Origin: Methylobacterium bullatum | GTDB lineage: Bacteria > Pseudomonadota > Alphaproteobacteria > Rhizobiales > Beijerinckiaceae | Assembly: GCA_902712845.1 (NCBI GenBank) | Contig: LR743504.1 | Location: 594,001-658,000 of the forward strand | DNA: 64,000 nucleotides | Direction: 5' to 3' | Shown here: positions 25,824-32,768 of the stretch, in pieces | How the letters are laid out: every line of letters starts with the position of its first letter | Position numbering within the stretch: the first letter of the stretch is position 1 | Notes under the pieces: generated by a model | What the model was told of the DNA's origin: nothing | Seen by the model: only the letters and a program-made list of their open reading frames with translations | Database searches by the model: none | Made by a program: the position numbers and the translations under genes

Positions 25824-26810
25824 TCAGGCCACCTTGCAGTCGTAGAATCCTTCGCGGATCGCCTGCGGATCGAGCTTGCGGCCGATGAAGACTACGCGGG
25901 AGACACGGGCCTCGCCGTCCTTCCACGGCCCCTGGAGGTCGCCGTCGAGGATCTGGTGGACGCCCTGGAAGACGAAGCGCTGGGGCTCGTCGGGGAAGGC
26001 CACGATGCCCTTGCAGCGCAGGATGTCCGGCCCCTGCACCTGGGTCAGGGTCGAGATCCACGGCATGAACTTCTCCGGGTCCACCGGGCCGTCGATCCTG
26101 GCCGAGACCGACTGCATGTCGTCGTCGTGGTGGTGATGGTGGCCCTCCTCGAGGAAGTCGGGCTCGATATCGAGGATGCGCGAGAGGTCGAAGGCGTTGC
26201 GGTCGAGAACCTGGTCGAGGGGAACGTCGCAGCGGCTGGTGCGGTGGACCTTGGCATAGGGGTTGATCGACCGGATCAGGCCCTCGACGCGGTCGAGATC
26301 GGCGGGCTCCACGAGGTCGGCCTTGTTGAGCAGGATCACGTCCGCAAAGGCGATCTGGTTCTTGGCCTCCGGCGCGTCCTTGAGGCGGTCGGCCAGCCAC
26401 TTGGCGTCCGCCACCGTCACCACCGCGTCGAGGCGGGCGGCCCCGCCGACATCCTCGTCGATGAAGAAGGTCTGGGCCACGGGGGCCGGGTCGGCGAGGC
26501 CGGTGGTCTCCACGATGATCGCGTCGAATTTGCCGCGCCGCTTCACCAGCCCGTCCATGATGCGGATGAGGTCGCCGCGCACGGTGCAGCAGACGCAGCC
26601 GTTGTTCATCTCGAACACTTCCTCGTCGGCGCCGATGACGAGGTCGTTGTCGATGCCGATCTCGCCGAACTCGTTGACGATGACGGCGTAGCGCTTGCCG
26701 TGGTTCTCGGTGAGGATGCGGTTGAGGAGCGTGGTCTTGCCGGCTCCGAGATAACCGGTGAGCACGGTCACGGGAATTTTTTGGGATACGGTGTTCAGGC
26801 TGTCGGACAT
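25824..26810 (-). CDS. COG0523 (CobW/ZNG1-type) metal-handling GTPase
   Basis: 328 residues. The P-loop GYLGAGKTT is at about 19-27, the metal-binding CVCC motif at about 72-75 in [12 protein letters not shown], switch region [11 protein letters not shown], and the guanine-specificity motif [10 protein letters not shown] histidine/aspartate run (HHHHHDDD near 225) follows, typical of metal storage loops. The C-terminal CobW_C domain ends with FYDCKVA. Such proteins act as metallochaperones for Zn(II) or cobalt; a palindrome resembling a Zur box lies 53 bp upstream, favouring zinc. It is downstream of the tetR gene on the same strand. Confidence 0.88.
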
Positions 26811-26862: not shown

Positions 26863-26877
26863 TGTTATATTGTATCA
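26863..26877 (-). promoter_or_regulatory. Zur-box-like palindrome upstream of the COG0523 gene
   Basis: TGTTATA-TTG-TATCA(C) reads on the plus strand; the half-sites TGTTATA and TGATACA agree at five of seven positions. AT-rich palindromes of this form are typical of Zur operators. It lies 53 bp before the GTPase start and includes the stop codon of the upstream tetR gene. Identification as a Zur site is an inference. Confidence 0.4.
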
Positions 26878-27479
26878 CCCCACCCCGATGAAAGGGCGTT
26901 CCCTGATCCCGTCCCAGGGGGCCTGAGGCTGTCGCACAGGGAAGCGAGGGTGGAGCGGAATCCGGTCGATCCGGCCAGCAGCCGTTCGAGCAGGAGCGCG
27001 CCCTCCAGGGTCGCCACCACCATCCGGGCCGTGGCGACGGGGTCGAGGCCGGGGCGCAGGCTCCCGTCGGCGCAGCCCTCGGTGAGCACGAGCTCCAGCC
27101 AGGCGATGTGCTTGTCGAAGAAGCGGGCGATGTCGGCGCGCAGGGTGTCCGGCAGCGTGTCCCTCTCGATGGCGAGGACGGCGCAGAGGCAGCCGAGCCC
27201 GTCCTCGACCCCGGTGAGATAGAGCCGGCCATAAGCCTCGATCCGCGCGATCGCGTTCGACTCGGCAGCCACGATGGCGGCGAGCGCCGCATCGTAGCGG
27301 GCGTCGTAGGCCTCCACCAGAGCGAGGGCGAGGTCGGTCTTCGTGCGGAAATGGTGATGGATACTCGCCTTGCGGATGCTCACCGCCTCGGCGAGGTCGC
27401 CATAGCTGAAACCGGAATAGCCCCGGCCCCGTACCAGGATCTCGGCCTGGGCCAGCAGCTCCGCTCTGGTGTCTCTCAT
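26865..27479 (-). CDS. TetR-family transcriptional regulator
   Basis: 204 residues from the ATG at 27479 (MRDTRAELLAQAEILVR). The N-terminal helix-turn-helix is clear: GYSGFSYGDLAEAVSIRKASIHHHFRTKTDLALALVE. The C-terminal domain (about 65-195) is helical with a Cys pair (GLGCLCAVLA) and resembles the YxaF/AcrR-like ligand domain, as in regulators responding to small electrophiles or aldehydes; the ligand is not known. It is transcribed away from the periplasmic quinoprotein-relay genes, and an 18-bp palindrome lies over that promoter, so it probably represses them. Confidence 0.9.
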   Translation of the reverse strand: MRDTRAELLAQAEILVRGRGYSGFSYGDLAEAVSIRKASIHHHFRTKTDLALALVEAYDARYDAALAAIVAAESNAIARIEAYGRLYLTGVEDGLGCLCAVLAIERDTLPDTLRADIARFFDKHIAWLELVLTEGCADGSLRPGLDPVATARMVVATLEGALLLERLLAGSTGFRSTLASLCDSLRPPGTGSGNALSSGWGDTI

Positions 27480-27587
27480 GGTCGGTCGATCATGGTCGGG
27501 GGCTTCGCGAAACCGGAGAGGGAGGCACGAAGGCGTGATGCGCACATTTCGCGCGTCAGCACTTATGCCGTTGACGGCGGCAAAAAT

Positions 27588-27605
27588 CTACCTACTAGAT
27601 GGTAG
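27588..27605 (+). promoter_or_regulatory. putative TetR operator over the relay-operon promoter
   Basis: CTACCTACTAGATGGTAG matches its reverse complement at 14 of 18 positions (CTACC..CTAG..GGTAG). A TTGACG box at 27571-27576 and a TACTAG box at 27593-27598, 16 bp apart, form a plausible sigma-70 promoter whose -10 lies inside the palindrome. Binding here would block transcription of the metallohydrolase gene. Confidence 0.55.
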
Positions 27606-27628
27606 CCATAAAAATGGGAGGATAATTC

Positions 27629-27673
27629 ATGAAAGGTCGCTTCGCCGGGCGATCCTCGCAGGATATGCCATGA
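27629..27673 (+). CDS. possible 14-codon leader peptide
   Basis: A 14-residue frame (MKGRFAGRSSQDMP) begins 7 bases after a strong GGGAGG site and stops with the TGA that overlaps the ATG of the metallohydrolase (ATGA). This arrangement would couple translation of the operon to the leader. It may be only a chance frame, but the ribosome site belongs to this ATG better than to any other. Confidence 0.35.
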   Translation: MKGRFAGRSSQDMP

Positions 27674-28617
27674 ACCCGCAGCCTCAGCGGAGCTTGGCCA
27701 CGCGCCGCGGCGCCCTGTTCGGAGGGCTGTGCCTGTGCTGCCTGCCGAGCCTCGGCCGGGCGGCTGAATCCTTCACCATGGATGAGGTCGGTCCGGGCAT
27801 CTTCATGCGGCGCGGCCTCGATGCCGAGGCGACACCCGAGAACGGCGACGCCATCGCCAATATCGGCTTCGTCGTCGGCGAGACATCCGTGCTCGTGACC
27901 GAGTCGGGCGGCAGCCTCGCCGATGGGGAATGGCTTCGCGCCGAGATCGGGAAACGCACGTCCAAACCCGTCAGCCACGTGGTGCTGACCCATGTCCATC
28001 CCGACCATTGCTTCGGCGCGCAGGCCTTCGCGCAGGACAAGCCGGTCTTCGTCGGTCACCACGCCCTGCGGTCGGCCCTCGATTCGCGCGGCGACTTCTA
28101 CAGGACGCGCCTCGTGGAGATCCTCGGGGCCGACAAGGCCGGATCGGTGGTCTACCCGACCATGGAGGTGGCCGACACGGCCGAGATCGACCTCGGCGGA
28201 CGGAGCTTGCGCTTCACCGCCCATGGCACCGCCCATACCAATTGCGACCTCTCCATGGTCGATACGGGCACGGGCATCCTGTTCCCGGCCGACCTCCTGT
28301 TCGTCGGCCGGGTCCCCTCCCTCGACGGCAGCCTGCTCGGCTGGCTCAAGGAGGTCGAGACACTGACCGGACTGGGCGCGACGAAGGCCGTGCCCGGCCA
28401 TGGCCCGACCCTGGTCGACGCCGCCCCCGCCTTCGCCGACCTGACGCGTTACCTCACGGTGCTCCGCGACGAGACCCGCAAGGCCATCGCCGCCGATCAA
28501 CCCATCGACAAGGCGATCGACAGTATCGGCCAGTCGGAGCGCGAGAAATGGGTCCTGTTCGACACCTATAACGGCCGCAACGTCACTCAGGCCTACAAGG
28601 AGCTTGAGTGGGAATGA
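27670..28617 (+). CDS. quinoprotein relay system zinc metallohydrolase (MBL fold)
   Basis: 315 residues. The N-terminus has an RR motif (TRRGALFGGLCLCCLPSLGRAA) suggesting Tat export. The metallo-beta-lactamase core shows THVHPDHCFGA (HxHxDH zinc ligands), a third His in FTAHGTAHTNCDLS, the Asp in LLFPADLLFVGR and the last His in AVPGHGPTL. Periplasmic MBL proteins of this type occur with PQQ-dependent alcohol dehydrogenase systems; the reaction is not established. It is the first gene of a set followed by SoxYZ-like and CXXCW proteins and is divergent from tetR. No dehydrogenase or PQQ gene is in the window. Confidence 0.8.
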   Translation: MNPQPQRSLATRRGALFGGLCLCCLPSLGRAAESFTMDEVGPGIFMRRGLDAEATPENGDAIANIGFVVGETSVLVTESGGSLADGEWLRAEIGKRTSKPVSHVVLTHVHPDHCFGAQAFAQDKPVFVGHHALRSALDSRGDFYRTRLVEILGADKAGSVVYPTMEVADTAEIDLGGRSLRFTAHGTAHTNCDLSMVDTGTGILFPADLLFVGRVPSLDGSLLGWLKEVETLTGLGATKAVPGHGPTLVDAAPAFADLTRYLTVLRDETRKAIAADQPIDKAIDSIGQSEREKWVLFDTYNGRNVTQAYKELEWE

Positions 28618-28652
28618 GCCAGCGCCACATCATCACGACGAGGAGAGACGCC

Positions 28653-29498
28653 ATGACCACCGATGCGCCGACACCGATCTCCGCGACCAAACGGTCCTTC
28701 ACCGCCGCCCTGTGCCTGTCCGCAGCCCTGCTGATGGGCGGCTCCGCCCTCGCCGCCGGCTCCAGCGACACCGATGCGGAGCGGCTGGAGCGCTGGCGGG
28801 ACATCTCGAAATCCATCTTCGGCGACCGCACGATCGAGCCGACCGACGCGCTCATCAAGGTCGATGCCCCGCCGCGCGCCCTCGACGCCTCCCTGGTGCC
28901 GATCACCCTGATGATGCCGGAGAAGGACAGGATCGCCGCCGTTCACCTCATCATCGACGACAATCCCTCGCCCTATGCCGCCCACATCACCTTCGGCCCC
29001 GCCGCGGACCCGAGCGAGGTGAAGCTCCGGGTGCGGATCAACAACTACACCAACGTCCATGCCGTGGCCGAGACCAAGGACGGCAAGCTCTACGAGGCCG
29101 TGAAATTCGTCAAAGCCTCGGGCGGATGCTCCGCACCCATGGGGATGAGCGACGAGGAGGCCCTGAAGGGGGCCGGCGACATGAAGATGAAGTTCACTGA
29201 CGGCGGCCAGGGCAAGCCGACGGAGGCGACGCTGATGGTCCGTCACCCGAATTTCAGCGGGATGCAGATGAACCAGATCACCCGCGACTACACGCCGGCC
29301 CGCTACATCAACAAGCTCGACGTCTCCTCGAACGGCACGCTCGTCTTCTCCATGAACGGCGACATCTCCATCGCGTCGAACCCGGTGATCAATTTTGCCC
29401 TCGCCCCCGACGCCAAGGGTCCGATCAGGGTGGTGGCCACGGACAACCAGCAGAGCCGCTGGGAACACAGCTTCAACACGCCGACCCCGAGCAACTGA
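28653..29498 (+). CDS. quinoprotein dehydrogenase-associated SoxYZ-like carrier
   Basis: 281 residues from the ATG at 28653, chosen for its GAGGAGAG site and because a Sec signal (KRSFTAALCLSAALLMGGSALA) follows. Residues about 50-160 are SoxY-like and include the cysteine in SGGCSAPMG, equivalent to the swinging-arm GGCG cysteine that carries sulfur intermediates; here it is internal, not C-terminal. Residues about 175-275 are SoxZ-like (EATLMVRHPNFSGMQMN). Fused SoxYZ proteins of this kind are found beside PQQ dehydrogenases, not classical Sox operons. Probably a covalent carrier in the periplasm; the cargo is unknown. Confidence 0.85.
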   Translation: MTTDAPTPISATKRSFTAALCLSAALLMGGSALAAGSSDTDAERLERWRDISKSIFGDRTIEPTDALIKVDAPPRALDASLVPITLMMPEKDRIAAVHLIIDDNPSPYAAHITFGPAADPSEVKLRVRINNYTNVHAVAETKDGKLYEAVKFVKASGGCSAPMGMSDEEALKGAGDMKMKFTDGGQGKPTEATLMVRHPNFSGMQMNQITRDYTPARYINKLDVSSNGTLVFSMNGDISIASNPVINFALAPDAKGPIRVVATDNQQSRWEHSFNTPTPSN

Positions 29499-29500
29499 CG

Positions 29501-30112
29501 ATGAGGATGCCGCGCATGATCCGACTGTTCGGAGCCGCAGCCCTCGCCCTCGCCGCCCTGTCGGGAGCACCGGCCTGGGCGGCGAGCCCCGCCGATTCGC
29601 CCGTGAACGTGCCCGAGCCCGAAGGCTTCTGGACCGGGCCGCCGAAGGGCTACACCCCCAAGACCCTGACGGGGGCGACGGTGGTCGATATCGACGCCCT
29701 GGACCGGCTGGTCGCCGCCGAGAAACCGGTGATGATCGACGTGGCCCTGGCCGACCGGAAGCCGGCGGGCTTTCCGGAGGACCGGCCCTGGCTCCCGGCC
29801 CACCGCTCGATTCCCGGCAGCGTCTGGATGCCCGGCGCGGGCGCGGCACCGATGGCCCCGGAGCGCGAGGCGCAGTTCCTCGCGCGCGTCGCCGACCTCA
29901 CCGGCGGCGACAAGACGAAACCGGTGGTCACCTTCTGCCATCCCGAATGCTGGGGCAGCTGGAATGCCGGCAAGCGCCTGATCCAGAACGGCTATACCCG
30001 CGTCTACTGGTTCGCCGACGGGGTCGAGGGCTGGCAGGACAGGCACGACACCACGATCCTGAAGGTCGACGCCGCCTGGGCCGCCAAGCCCGCCGGCGAG
30101 GCACAAAGATGA
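29501..30112 (+). CDS. PQQ-dependent catabolism-associated CXXCW motif protein (rhodanese-like)
   Basis: 203 residues with a signal peptide (LFGAAALALAALSGAPAWAA) and a single rhodanese-like domain. The hallmark VVTFCHPECWGSWNAGKRL contains the CxxCW motif that names the family and replaces the usual rhodanese active-site loop; IPGSVWMPGAG and YTRVYWFADGVEGWQ are the flanking rhodanese elements. It begins two bases after the SoxYZ stop and is clearly co-translated. A periplasmic sulfur- or thiol-transfer role is inferred; the vicinal cysteines would need reduction, which the downstream thioredoxin-like/CcdA pair could supply. Confidence 0.85.
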   Translation: MRMPRMIRLFGAAALALAALSGAPAWAASPADSPVNVPEPEGFWTGPPKGYTPKTLTGATVVDIDALDRLVAAEKPVMIDVALADRKPAGFPEDRPWLPAHRSIPGSVWMPGAGAAPMAPEREAQFLARVADLTGGDKTKPVVTFCHPECWGSWNAGKRLIQNGYTRVYWFADGVEGWQDRHDTTILKVDAAWAAKPAGEAQR

Positions 30113-30180
30113 CGCCCGCCGGCGAGGCAGCGCCCGAACTCGGGTCAAGGGGTTCGGCATGACGATGGACAGGGCACACC

Positions 30181-30292
30181 GTCATTCCGGGGCGCCGAAG
30201 GCGAGCCCGGAATCCAGATCCGCCAGGCGCGCCATGTCGAGGCCCCGTCGCGGCTCTGGATTCCGGGCTCCGCGATGCGGACCCGGAATGAC
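30181..30292. repeat. REP-like palindromic element, family D
   Basis: Inverted repeat with outer arms GTCATTCCGG / CCGGAATGAC and inner GAGCCCGGAATCCAGA / TCTGGATTCCGGGCTC arms. It lies in the 341-bp gap between the CXXCW gene and the thioredoxin-like gene, where it could reduce co-expression. The rest of that gap (30297-30453) shows no gene. Confidence 0.8.
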
Positions 30293-30453
30293 GACTTGGG
30301 TATCAAAGCCAGTTTGTACGTTTCCATGGGTCAGGTGACATGACCCCCAATTCGGGTCTCGGCCCAGCGATAGAGCAGCAGTTACCGACGTAACCAGCCT
30401 CGGTAACGCGGCCGGCTGCAAGCCGCATACACCTCACTGTCGAGACATTCCCG

Positions 30454-30834
30454 ATGATCAGCCGTCGCGCCCTCCTCCTCACGACGGCCCTTCTCGCCAT
30501 CACCGGCGAGACCCTCGCCGCCGAACCGTTCGACGAGGCGGCCTTCGCCGCCGCTCAAGGTGCCGGCCGGCCGATCATCGTGGAGGTGACGGCCCCCTGG
30601 TGCCCGATCTGCAAGGCGCAGAAGCCGCTCCTGAAGGCCCTCTCCGAACAGCCGCGTTTCAAGGATCTGGCGATCTACGAAATCGACTTCGACACGCAGA
30701 AGGCGCTGATGCGCCGGTTCGATGCGCGTATGCAGAGCACGCTCATCGTCTTCAAGGGACGCGAGGAGGTCGGCCGTTCCGTGGGCGAGACGCAGGGCGA
30801 ATGGATCGAGGCCCTGGTGGAGAAGGCGCTGTAG
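30454..30834 (+). CDS. periplasmic thioredoxin-family protein
   Basis: 126 residues with an export signal (RRALLLTTALLAITGETLAA) and a thioredoxin fold. The redox site is APWCPICKAQKPLL (WCPIC), reminiscent of the C-terminal domain of DsbD, and the cis-Pro loop is replaced by MQSTLIVFKGREEVGR, where a Ser-Thr precedes the strand. DsbD-like thioredoxins paired with CcdA carry electrons from the cytoplasm to periplasmic thiols. ccdA starts 50 bp downstream. It may reduce the CXXCW and SoxYZ cysteines of the preceding genes. Confidence 0.85.
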   Translation: MISRRALLLTTALLAITGETLAAEPFDEAAFAAAQGAGRPIIVEVTAPWCPICKAQKPLLKALSEQPRFKDLAIYEIDFDTQKALMRRFDARMQSTLIVFKGREEVGRSVGETQGEWIEALVEKAL

Positions 30835-30884
30835 AGCGGCGCCGGGAATCCAGCGGGCATCCCTGTCATGACTACGTCCCTTCC

Positions 30885-31604
30885 ATGAATGCCTCGCTCG
30901 GCCTCGCTTTCCTCGCCGGCCTTCTCACCATCCTGTCTCCCTGCGTGCTGCCGCTGCTTCCCATCGTTTTGGGGGCCGCGGCTTCCGAGCATCGTTTGGG
31001 GCCGGCGGCCCTGGCGGCTGGGCTCGCTCTGTCCTTCGTGACGCTCGGCCTGTTCGTGGCGACCGTTGGGTTCGGCCTCGGTATCGACGGCGACGTGCTC
31101 CGCCCGGTGGCGGCGCTCCTGCTCGTTCTCGTCGGAATCGTCCTCATCGTGCCGGCCTTGCAGGTCCGCCTCGCCGCCGCGGGCGGGCCTCTCAGCGACC
31201 GGCTGGAGCGACGCTTCGGGGGCATCGCGACCACCGGCCTCGCGGGCCAGTTCACCGTCGGCCTCCTGCTCGGGGCGGTGTGGAGCCCCTGCGTCGGGCC
31301 GACCCTCGGCGCCGCCTCCCTCCTCGCCGCCCAGGGCAGGGACCTCGCGCAGGTCGCCCTCACCATGCTGGTCTTCGGCCTCGGCGCCGCCCTGCCGTTG
31401 CTCGGCCTCGGCCTGCTGTCGCGACGGGTGCTGATGGCGTGGCGGGCGCGGATGATACAGGCGGGCAAGGGCCTCAAGGCCGTTCTGGGACTCGTCCTCG
31501 TCCTGACCGGGCTCGCGATTTTGACGGGGCTCGACAAGCGTCTCGAGACGGCCCTCGTGGCGGCCTCGCCGGCCTGGCTGACAGCTGTGACCACCCGTTT
31601 CTAA
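30885..31604 (+). CDS. ccdA: cytochrome c biogenesis / thiol-electron transporter CcdA
   Basis: 239 residues, six predicted membrane helices. The two redox-active cysteines lie in the paired Pro-rich motifs LSPCVLPLLPIVLG (first helix) and WSPCVGPTLGAASLLA (fourth helix), the inverted-repeat signature of CcdA/DsbD transmembrane domains. It moves reducing equivalents from cytoplasmic thioredoxin to the periplasm, here most likely to the thioredoxin-like protein encoded just upstream. Start ATG 30885 was chosen because the membrane domain begins at once. Confidence 0.88.
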   Translation: MNASLGLAFLAGLLTILSPCVLPLLPIVLGAAASEHRLGPAALAAGLALSFVTLGLFVATVGFGLGIDGDVLRPVAALLLVLVGIVLIVPALQVRLAAAGGPLSDRLERRFGGIATTGLAGQFTVGLLLGAVWSPCVGPTLGAASLLAAQGRDLAQVALTMLVFGLGAALPLLGLGLLSRRVLMAWRARMIQAGKGLKAVLGLVLVLTGLAILTGLDKRLETALVAASPAWLTAVTTRF

Positions 31605-31943
31605 GGTATACCAGGCGACACGGGCCGGGAGAGGAAGAATGCCGACGAATTCAGCACCATCAGGGGCTTATGGACCGGCGTCACCCGTTGACACGGCTCC
31701 GGTTGTGGCAGAATAAAGCCATCGGAGACGGCCCGACGTCTAGGGAGGAAACGCCCGGCAAGGGTTGCGACGACAGGCGACGCCATCGCCACATCGTCAG
31801 CATAAGATCCGTCAGCCTCTCCGATTCCTTGCATACAGTCGCCCGCGTCCGTCATCACGGCGCGTGATTTCGGCATTCCGAGCGTATAGACATCGCCGAC
31901 ATGCCTCCGGCCTTCGCGCCGCCGGCGAACCGGGTTGAGATCG
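31605..31943. other. intergenic region between ccdA and panB
   Basis: About 340 bp without a supported gene. A minus-strand frame here has no ribosome site or family resemblance. The panB promoter should lie within it; no confident -35/-10 pair was picked out. Confidence 0.4.
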
Positions 31944-32768
31944 ATGTCGCAAGTCGTTCAGTCACGCCGCATCCGTGCCGTGGACCTCGCCAAGCGCAAG
32001 GCCGAAGGCGCCAAGATCATCGCGCTGACGGCCTACCACGCCCACACCGCCAGCATCCTCGATCCCCATTGCGACTTCATCTTGGTGGGCGACTCCCTCG
32101 GCATGGTCATGCACGGGATGGAGACGACCCTGCCGGTGACCCTGGAGATGATGATCGTCCAGGCGCAGGCCGTGATCCGCGGCACATCGAAGGCCCTCAT
32201 CGTGGTGGACATGCCGTTCGGCTCCTACGAGGCGAGCCCGCAGCAGGCCTTCATGAGCGCCGCCCGCGTGCTGAAGGAGACCGGCGCCGGCGCGATCAAG
32301 ATGGAGGGCGGCGCGCGTTTCGCCGAGACGGTCAGCTTCCTGGTGGAGCGGGGCATCCCGGTGATGGGCCATATCGGCCTCACCCCCCAATCCGTGAACA
32401 CGATGGGCGGGTTCCGCGTGCAGGGACGCGGCGCGGACGGCGAGCGCAAGCTGATGCAGGACGCCCAGGCGATCAGCGACGCGGGGGCCTTCGCCATCGT
32501 GCTCGAAGGCATCGTCGAGCCGGTGGCCCGCGCCATCGCCACGACCCCCTCCATCACAACGGTGACCATCGGCATCGGCGCCTCCACCGCCTGCGACGGC
32601 CAGATCCTCGTCCTCGAGGACATGCTGGGCCTGAGCGACCGGGTGCCGAAATTCGTGAAGCGCTTCGGCTTCCTGCGCGGGCAGATCGAGGGCGCCGTGG
32701 AGGCCTATGCGGAAGAGGTCCGCGCCGGCCGCTTCCCGGCGGACGAGCATACCTACGACCCCCTCTGA
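31944..32768 (+). CDS. panB: 3-methyl-2-oxobutanoate hydroxymethyltransferase PanB
   Basis: 274 residues from ATG 31944. It transfers a hydroxymethyl group from 5,10-methylene-tetrahydrofolate to ketoisovalerate, giving ketopantoate for pantothenate and CoA. The TIM-barrel motifs are intact: [37 protein letters not shown] (metal-binding Asp), [46 protein letters not shown] and [21 protein letters not shown]. No panC or panE is nearby. It is followed by a family B REP element. Confidence 0.95.

Follow-up and report, generated by a model that had tools for sequence, protein, structure and literature searches.

A TetR-flanked gene set around a fused SoxYZ carrier in Methylobacterium bullatum: association with PQQ alcohol dehydrogenases and a proposed periplasmic sulfur relay

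Here we describe a gene set of Methylobacterium bullatum, centred on a fused SoxY-SoxZ carrier, which is strongly tied to pyrroloquinoline quinone (PQQ)-dependent alcohol dehydrogenases. The set lies in a stretch of 64,000 nucleotides (the window; contig LR743504.1, G000:C1:594001-658000 in our numbering) of a genome of 4.84 Mb. Besides the carrier it encodes a SoxH-like hydrolase of the metallo-beta-lactamase type (MBL), a rhodanese-fold protein with two loop cysteines (CXXCW), a TetR-family regulator, a thioredoxin (Trx) and a CcdA-type electron transporter. Tentatively, and with somewhat less than even confidence, we read the set as a thiol-regulated periplasmic sulfur relay that would serve PQQ dehydrogenases, most likely by protecting them from sulfur nucleophiles. 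What is new here is the TetR-palindrome regulatory feature together with a revised account of how Trx-CcdA relates to the set. The features of the set are as follows.

26865-27545, minus strand: TetR-family regulator, PF00440 and PF16925 over cut-off, transcribed away from the operon, probable ATG start 27479, ligand domain with a CxC pair
27588-27605, no strand: proposed operator, palindrome CTACCTACTAGATGGTAG, sited in the TetR-MBL gap
27670-28617, plus strand: SoxH-like MBL hydrolase, TIGR04559 over cut-off, ligands of a dinuclear zinc site, twin-arginine-like leader
28653-29498, plus strand: fused SoxY-SoxZ carrier (SoxYZ), TIGR04557 over cut-off, PF13501 and PF08770, cysteine in a GGCSAP arm between the domains
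29501-30112, plus strand: CXXCW protein, predicted exported, rhodanese fold, TIGR03865 over cut-off, loop cysteines C146 and C150
30180-30293, no strand: inverted repeat in the CXXCW-Trx gap, 44-nt arms, 80% complementary
30454-30834, plus strand: thioredoxin, predicted exported, WCPIC motif, PF00085 over cut-off
30885-31604, plus strand: membrane electron transporter of the CcdA/DsbD transmembrane type, PF13386 and PF02683 over cut-off

The fused carrier co-occurs with PQQ alcohol dehydrogenases

We surveyed samples of 150 genomes from the order, 299 from the phylum and 80 from the family, calling dehydrogenases, SoxYZ and CXXCW by family cut-offs. A fused SoxYZ was counted only when it was free of internal stops; this removed 6 of 49 over-cut-off genomes from the order sample and 21 of 54 from the phylum sample, which were read as having separate soxY and soxZ. 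We found a PQQ alcohol dehydrogenase in 43/43 fused-SoxYZ genomes of the order sample versus 9/107 of the others (Fisher test, p = 4.8e-29; these tests take genomes as independent and related genomes are not, so this and the later p-values overstate the case). Similarly, the enzyme was found in 33/33 carrier genomes of the phylum sample (p = 1.6e-25), and in the family sample in 24/26 carrier genomes versus 7/54 without the carrier. The two exceptions in the family are G480 (see Discussion) and G472, which has a best dehydrogenase match of 478.5 bits, the cut-off being 480.05. CXXCW was likewise over cut-off in 39/43 carrier genomes of the order sample versus 1/107 others. This bears out the association with PQQ dehydrogenases that a preliminary description of the window had suggested, and the co-occurrence it proposed to look for holds for the SoxYZ, MBL and CXXCW trio; the link of Trx to SoxYZ is unclear (below).

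We then compared two collections of loci, the best 80 of 99 found (80-locus set, 75 of them from Methylobacterium or Methylorubrum) and 70 fetched SoxYZ loci in stretches of up to 20 kb (70-locus set); they overlap in that L049 comes from the genome of L137 and L053 from that of L175. A PQQ dehydrogenase gene was present in the same stretch in 28/70 loci of the latter and near the set in only 1/80 of the former, at the very edge of the stretch. The M. bullatum genome has over-cut-off PQQ alcohol dehydrogenases on C1 at 2.12, 2.79 and 3.84 Mb, plus a weaker match at 4.77 Mb, and the set lies at 0.62 Mb. The closest over-cut-off gene is about 1.5 Mb away, so the earlier remark that no dehydrogenase is adjacent was right. 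The metal motif of the three over-cut-off enzymes reads DYD in two (L102, L103) and DYA in the third (L104). A fourth quinoprotein-like open reading frame (ORF), L105 (G000:C1:4773815-4775443), has GYD at the position of the catalytic DYD.

A link to lanthanide-type enzymes only was unsupported: among the sampled enzymes, a DYD enzyme was found in 39/43 carrier genomes but also in 6/9 carrier-less ones. The carrier genomes without a sampled DYD enzyme are G030, whose sole over-cut-off enzyme is non-DYD, and G031, G074 and G124, which have further enzymes outside the sample.

Catalytic residues of MBL, SoxYZ and CXXCW are conserved

MBL, SoxYZ and CXXCW each belong to an NCBIfam family named for quinoprotein or PQQ, with scores of 363.2 bits for TIGR04559 (cut-off 280), 261.9 for TIGR04557 (cut-off 140) and 135.7 for TIGR03865 (cut-off 128.05). 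Residue conservation was counted across the collected loci, using only rows above the score threshold. The seven metal-ligand positions of MBL (5 His, 2 Asp) were invariant in 113/113 rows, and the two arginines of its leader were retained in 103/113 and 104/113. The structure model of MBL (predicted local distance difference test score, pLDDT, 92.3) has as its nearest folds an uncharacterised Burkholderia protein and chlorothalonil dehalogenase (8d2z), followed by alkylsulfatases and class B beta-lactamases. We rejected MBL as a resistance subclass B metallo-beta-lactamase on NCBIfam scores of 28.3 (cut-off 100) and 23 (cut-off 200).

The arm cysteine of SoxYZ was invariant in 151/151 rows. 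The fusion scores under the true SoxY cut-off (70.5 versus 125) and under the true SoxZ cut-off (54.2 versus 76). In CXXCW, both cysteines and the tryptophan were invariant in 114/114 rows, and the model (pLDDT 87.6) has a rhodanese/sulfurtransferase fold in which CHPECW corresponds to the rhodanese-type active-site loop, with two cysteines. Thus the CxxCW pair described earlier is present as two cysteines and a tryptophan, but the sequence reads C-x-x-x-C-W.

The TetR gene is paired with a conserved palindrome

TetR diverges from MBL in 64/80 loci of the 80-locus set. We found a CTACCTACTAGATGGTAG-type site in the TetR-MBL gap of all 64 TetR loci with 0-3 mismatches, in 63 by script and in L128 by inspection; the script had flagged L128 owing to an over-long TetR ORF call, and its site is in the same place. 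The gap site was the top match of the whole locus in 63/64, with a tie with a second site in L149. Mismatches numbered 0 in 5 loci, 1 in 21, 2 in 32 and 3 in 6, whereas the best match of a reversed-pattern control in the same loci had 2 mismatches in 2, 3 in 35 and 4 in 27. For the weaker sites it is therefore the constant position, not the score, that carries weight. Seven MBL loci without TetR had no site with fewer than 3 mismatches, and the sole 3-mismatch site (L136) is far from MBL. In L115 the site is present and the contig stops before TetR.

The pairing extends beyond the family, as a perfect CTACCTAnnnnTAGGTAG stands directly before MBL or TetR in 4 loci from two other families. In total, the site was present in 5/5 loci with this TetR from outside the 80-locus set (one of them, L049, shares the genome of L137); the remaining 69 loci of that scan gave 2 hits, and the reversed pattern gave 1 hit in 1.4 Mb. 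The M. bullatum genome holds a single perfect copy and 3 further sites with 2 mismatches. A wider TetR regulon in this genome was rejected: given 25 such sites per strand for the reversed control, the 2-mismatch sites look like chance, and no other site has fewer than 2. In another Methylobacterium locus a 2-mismatch site (L055:10606-10623) lies upstream of a further SoxYZ-MBL pair by a PQQ dehydrogenase, which may reflect cross-regulation or chance.

The regulator carries a CxC pair (C119, C121) that is kept in 65/65 aligned rows; four TetRs of other families retain one cysteine, by eye the second. Among its PDB matches is the NemR structure 4yze (E = 2.1e-13). NemR is an electrophile sensor, with Cys106 as its cysteine. 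The conserved site in 64/64 TetR loci supports the TetR control proposed in the preliminary description. We infer from the conserved site and cysteine pair that TetR may repress the operon and sense its signal through the CxC thiols. Among the papers listed by literature searches largely outside subscription journals, we noticed none on this TetR or its site, and a search for work on NemR returned nothing.

Trx and CcdA form a separate pair with a set-linked Trx lineage

The Trx cysteine pair was invariant in 39/39 rows and the two CcdA cysteines in 19/19; both proteins are over Pfam cut-offs only. Their position beside a SoxYZ gene in the window is the layout of a SoxV/SoxW-type reductant. 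However, the grouping of the five genes in the preliminary description is borne out only partly. In the 80 family genomes, Trx occurs with CcdA in 25/26 Trx genomes and does not clearly track the fused SoxYZ (12/26 carrier genomes versus 14/54 without; p = 0.08), and we rejected five-gene co-inheritance as stated. SoxYZ adjoins Trx in 7/30 Trx loci, and in 5/30 there is a CXXCW-Trx pair without CcdA. We also inspected 20 wider family loci of Trx-CcdA, chosen from those standing apart from SoxYZ, and found no SoxYZ, CXXCW, MBL or PQQ dehydrogenase in any of the 20 stretches. Two of these stand-alone pairs have as neighbours a SoxC-like gene (L317:1451-2545) and a Crp regulator of the kind described below (L324:11746-12420).

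In the Trx tree, by contrast, 41/41 SoxYZ-linked rows fall in one clade with 1 unlinked row (support 98/90; some branches are long). In the CcdA tree the linked CcdAs were not placed, as the label needs 5 changes (4-6 in bootstraps). Thus Trx and CcdA are a pair separate from MBL-SoxYZ-CXXCW, yet the linked Trx is a single lineage. Of the earlier proposal that they reduce the set, the single clade and the presence of Trx beside the set in 34/80 loci of the 80-locus set speak for it and the weak co-occurrence against it; the observation it named as refuting, trx/ccdA beside unrelated genes in relatives, was made in part, in the 20 wider loci, and is to be set against the single clade of the linked Trx.

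The 80-locus set resolves into two locus types. Type I has MBL (72/80), and Trx follows in 26 and CcdA in 7. Type II lacks MBL (8/80), and Trx and CcdA follow in 8/8 and CXXCW is present in 7/8. A Crp-type regulator accompanies 7/8 type II loci, and within 10 kb there is a SoxC-like molybdopterin gene in 5/8 and separate soxY and soxZ in 3/8; the Crp-type regulator and the SoxC-like gene were found in 0/72 type I loci. Since type II always has Trx and CcdA and often a SoxC-like gene, the firmest association of the reductant is with the sulfur-linked form of the set. The type II loci with both a SoxC-like gene and a Crp-type regulator (L173, L174, L175, L177, L178) have the order SoxYZ-CXXCW-Trx-CcdA. 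In the 70-locus set a SoxC-like gene was found in L044, L053, L064, L090 and L092, and L090 and L092, from another genus, have it together with MBL and a PQQ dehydrogenase.

Downstream of CcdA in the window lies panB (ketopantoate hydroxymethyltransferase, 31935-32768). This position is kept in 63/64 TetR-bearing loci, which indicates that the whole neighbourhood is conserved in Methylobacterium. The gap between CXXCW and Trx is 341 nt (30113-30453), and Trx and CcdA are 50 nt apart. From CXXCW stop to Trx stop is 722 nt in the window, versus a median of 427 and a maximum of 647 in 33 loci of the 80-locus set, and the inverted repeat, which resembles a repetitive extragenic palindromic element, sits inside this unusually wide gap.

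A reading that treats TetR-MBL-SoxYZ-CXXCW as a unit by itself, with Trx-CcdA as a periplasmic reductant of general use that happens to share the conserved spot before panB, would account for the 25/26 co-occurrence of Trx with CcdA, the unclear link to SoxYZ, the 20 loci without any set gene, the kept panB position and the gap with its inverted repeat. We consider it unlikely, if worth weighing. It sits poorly with the single clade of SoxYZ-linked Trx, the Trx and CcdA in every MBL-less paralogous locus, the CXXCW-Trx pairs without CcdA, and the type II neighbours of two of the 20 stand-alone pairs.

Locus layout and neighbouring genes

The window SoxYZ shares 96% identity with those of Methylobacterium bullatum and Methylobacterium sp. 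Leaf91. All genes claimed in the preliminary description exist on the strands it gave, and MBL, SoxYZ and CXXCW are indeed tightly packed (35 nt from the MBL stop to SoxYZ, 2 nt from SoxYZ to CXXCW). The TetR gene lies largely outside the span it covered (27480-31604). The MBL ORF is open from 27469, with ATG 27670 as the likely start. A scan of 27450-32000 found no sigma-70 promoters. Just past TetR is a gene for a CobW-type GTPase (25824-26810), with 40 ORF matches across the 80-locus set.

Discussion

Across the phylum, including in lanthanide-type methanol oxidisers, the set accompanies PQQ alcohol dehydrogenases, and the published accounts considered here offer hypotheses only. The preliminary description had called the system undescribed, which was wrong: NCBI has named the families, and papers from 2024 and 2026 discuss the trio (PMC11237559, PMC12997753). 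PMC12997753 treats it in Pseudomonas putida, assigns the M. extorquens AM1 homologues to one operon together with a gene for a thioredoxin-like protein, and raises disulfide formation, cofactor stabilisation or shielding of PQQ from sulfur as ideas. PMC11237559 reports fused SoxYZ close to soxH and to a PQQ dehydrogenase or xoxF, proposes either a carbon role or protection against thiosulfate, states that SoxB can be replaced by SoxH for sulfate release, and notes that thiosulfate inhibits methanol use in Hyphomicrobium. In the same genus a SoxYZ fusion and SoxH lie near a PQQ enzyme (PMC11582611), and a second PQQ gene set is transcribed less when sulfane-sulfur repressors are lost (PMC12423496). 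A paper on lanthanide methanol oxidation in M. aquaticum (PMC7356819) makes no mention of Sox, rhodanese or thioredoxin.

We favour the sulfur relay because the set combines SoxY/SoxZ and rhodanese families with a hydrolase that has alkylsulfatases among its nearest folds, and because type II loci, with the same carrier, Trx and CcdA, are often near SoxC-like and soxY/soxZ genes. The relay would most likely clear sulfur nucleophiles (sulfite, thiosulfate, persulfide), which could otherwise form adducts with PQQ or obstruct the enzyme. A sulfur group would be taken up by the arm cysteine of the SoxYZ fusion, the two-cysteine CXXCW protein could move sulfane sulfur to or from the carrier, and the SoxH-like zinc hydrolase would release the oxidised group. 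The cysteines would be restored to thiols by Trx, with CcdA as its electron source at loci that have one, as SoxW and SoxV do in canonical Sox; Appia-Ayme and Berks are said to have reported in 2002 that SoxW is reduced by SoxV. The dedicated TetR would repress the operon at the promoter-region palindrome and probably be released when its CxC thiols react. In a fuller version, possible although doubtful, the set is an inducible defence of PQQ enzymes: TetR senses reactive sulfur or an electrophile and leaves its operator, the carrier, two-cysteine sulfurtransferase and sulfur-releasing zinc hydrolase are made, and they are reset by a Trx lineage that was taken up a single time from a Trx-CcdA pair standing by itself.

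Several observations weigh against a sulfur relay. Dehydrogenase genomes without the carrier number 9/52 in the order sample and 34/67 in the phylum sample, and G480 has a fused SoxYZ (G480:C61:3642-4310) with no over-cut-off dehydrogenase (best E = 3.3e-12), possibly owing to an assembly gap. The only SoxY match in the M. bullatum genome is the fusion, and the canonical thiosulfate pathway is therefore not the partner of the set here. Trx is missing beside 46/80 and CcdA beside 65/80 loci of the 80-locus set, although two of the Trx-less loci have a contig end within 500 nt. On the TetR (minus) strand, the palindrome and its T-run are scored as a hairpin of the terminator type; in three of the four loci from other families, TetR lies downstream and CTACCTAnnnnTAGGTAG is ahead of MBL on the operon strand, an arrangement more in keeping with an operator than with a terminator. 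In PMC12997753 the P. putida phenotypes by randomly barcoded transposon sequencing were minimal, though without rare earths, and PMC11237559 judges fused SoxYZ unlikely to act in direct sulfur metabolism and suggests that it may serve carbon metabolism. We found no published demonstration of sulfur on a fused carrier.

A redox or maturation factor, in which the set would form or mend the vicinal Cys-Cys disulfide of XoxF-type dehydrogenases or guard PQQ insertion, is listed as a possibility in PMC12997753. The Cys-Cys pair is present in 82/86 sampled dehydrogenase ORFs. A XoxF-like enzyme (score of at least 900, on a profile seeded from this genome's XoxF-like protein) is present in 36/43 carrier genomes, several of the other seven being incompletely sampled, versus 1/9 carrier-less dehydrogenase genomes. 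However, the pair also occurs in carrier-less genomes, including G138 with its XoxF-like enzyme; from the general biochemistry of these families Trx-CcdA gives reductant rather than oxidant, and a zinc hydrolase has no obvious task in disulfide formation. We consider the maturation reading improbable.

Least probable is a carbon relay, a periplasmic analogue of glutathione-linked formaldehyde oxidation in which the carrier thiol binds a dehydrogenase-made aldehyde as a thiohemiacetal that becomes a thioester freed by the hydrolase; the tie to alcohol dehydrogenases and the match of TetR to NemR, an electrophile sensor, would suit it. Thioesterases exist among MBL hydrolases, the glyoxalase II match of this MBL being weak (20.9, far under the cut-off of 200.8), and PMC11237559 favours a carbon role, but sulfur is indicated by the rhodanese fold of the partner and by the SoxC-like genes near type II loci.

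One locus type includes the hydrolase and the other is found mostly near SoxC-like genes, a contrast that allows the sulfur reading to be distinguished from the carbon one. The sharply conserved TetR site also provides a handle, as a compound that releases TetR should reveal what the set handles.

Comparison with known systems

The closest likeness is to the NCBIfam quinoprotein-associated set (TIGR04557 carrier, TIGR04559 relay metallohydrolase 2 and TIGR03865), with which the window shares three families over cut-off and the tie to PQQ. The ped cluster (PP_2666/2677/2678) and the SoxYZ-S2/S4 loci are of the same kind. An adjacent dehydrogenase, common but not universal, is found in ped and many xoxF loci, whereas the window set has none nearby. 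The window adds its own TetR with a conserved palindrome, and Trx and CcdA behind.

The Sox systems of Paracoccus and Rhodovulum with SoxV, SoxW and SoxS share the arm-cysteine carrier, the periplasmic Trx and the CcdA-type transporter; here, in contrast, SoxY and SoxZ are fused and under the true SoxY and SoxZ cut-offs, and the genome has no SoxY match besides the fusion. The selenoprotein TsoB (NF045694), a rhodanese/DsbD fusion, has parts that weakly match CXXCW, CcdA and Trx in that order (19.7, 25.6 and 18.8, cut-off 805), but is one fused protein. NemR and other cysteine-bearing TetRs resemble the window regulator in family and in having a ligand-domain cysteine; the window TetR differs by its CxC pair and its own palindrome.

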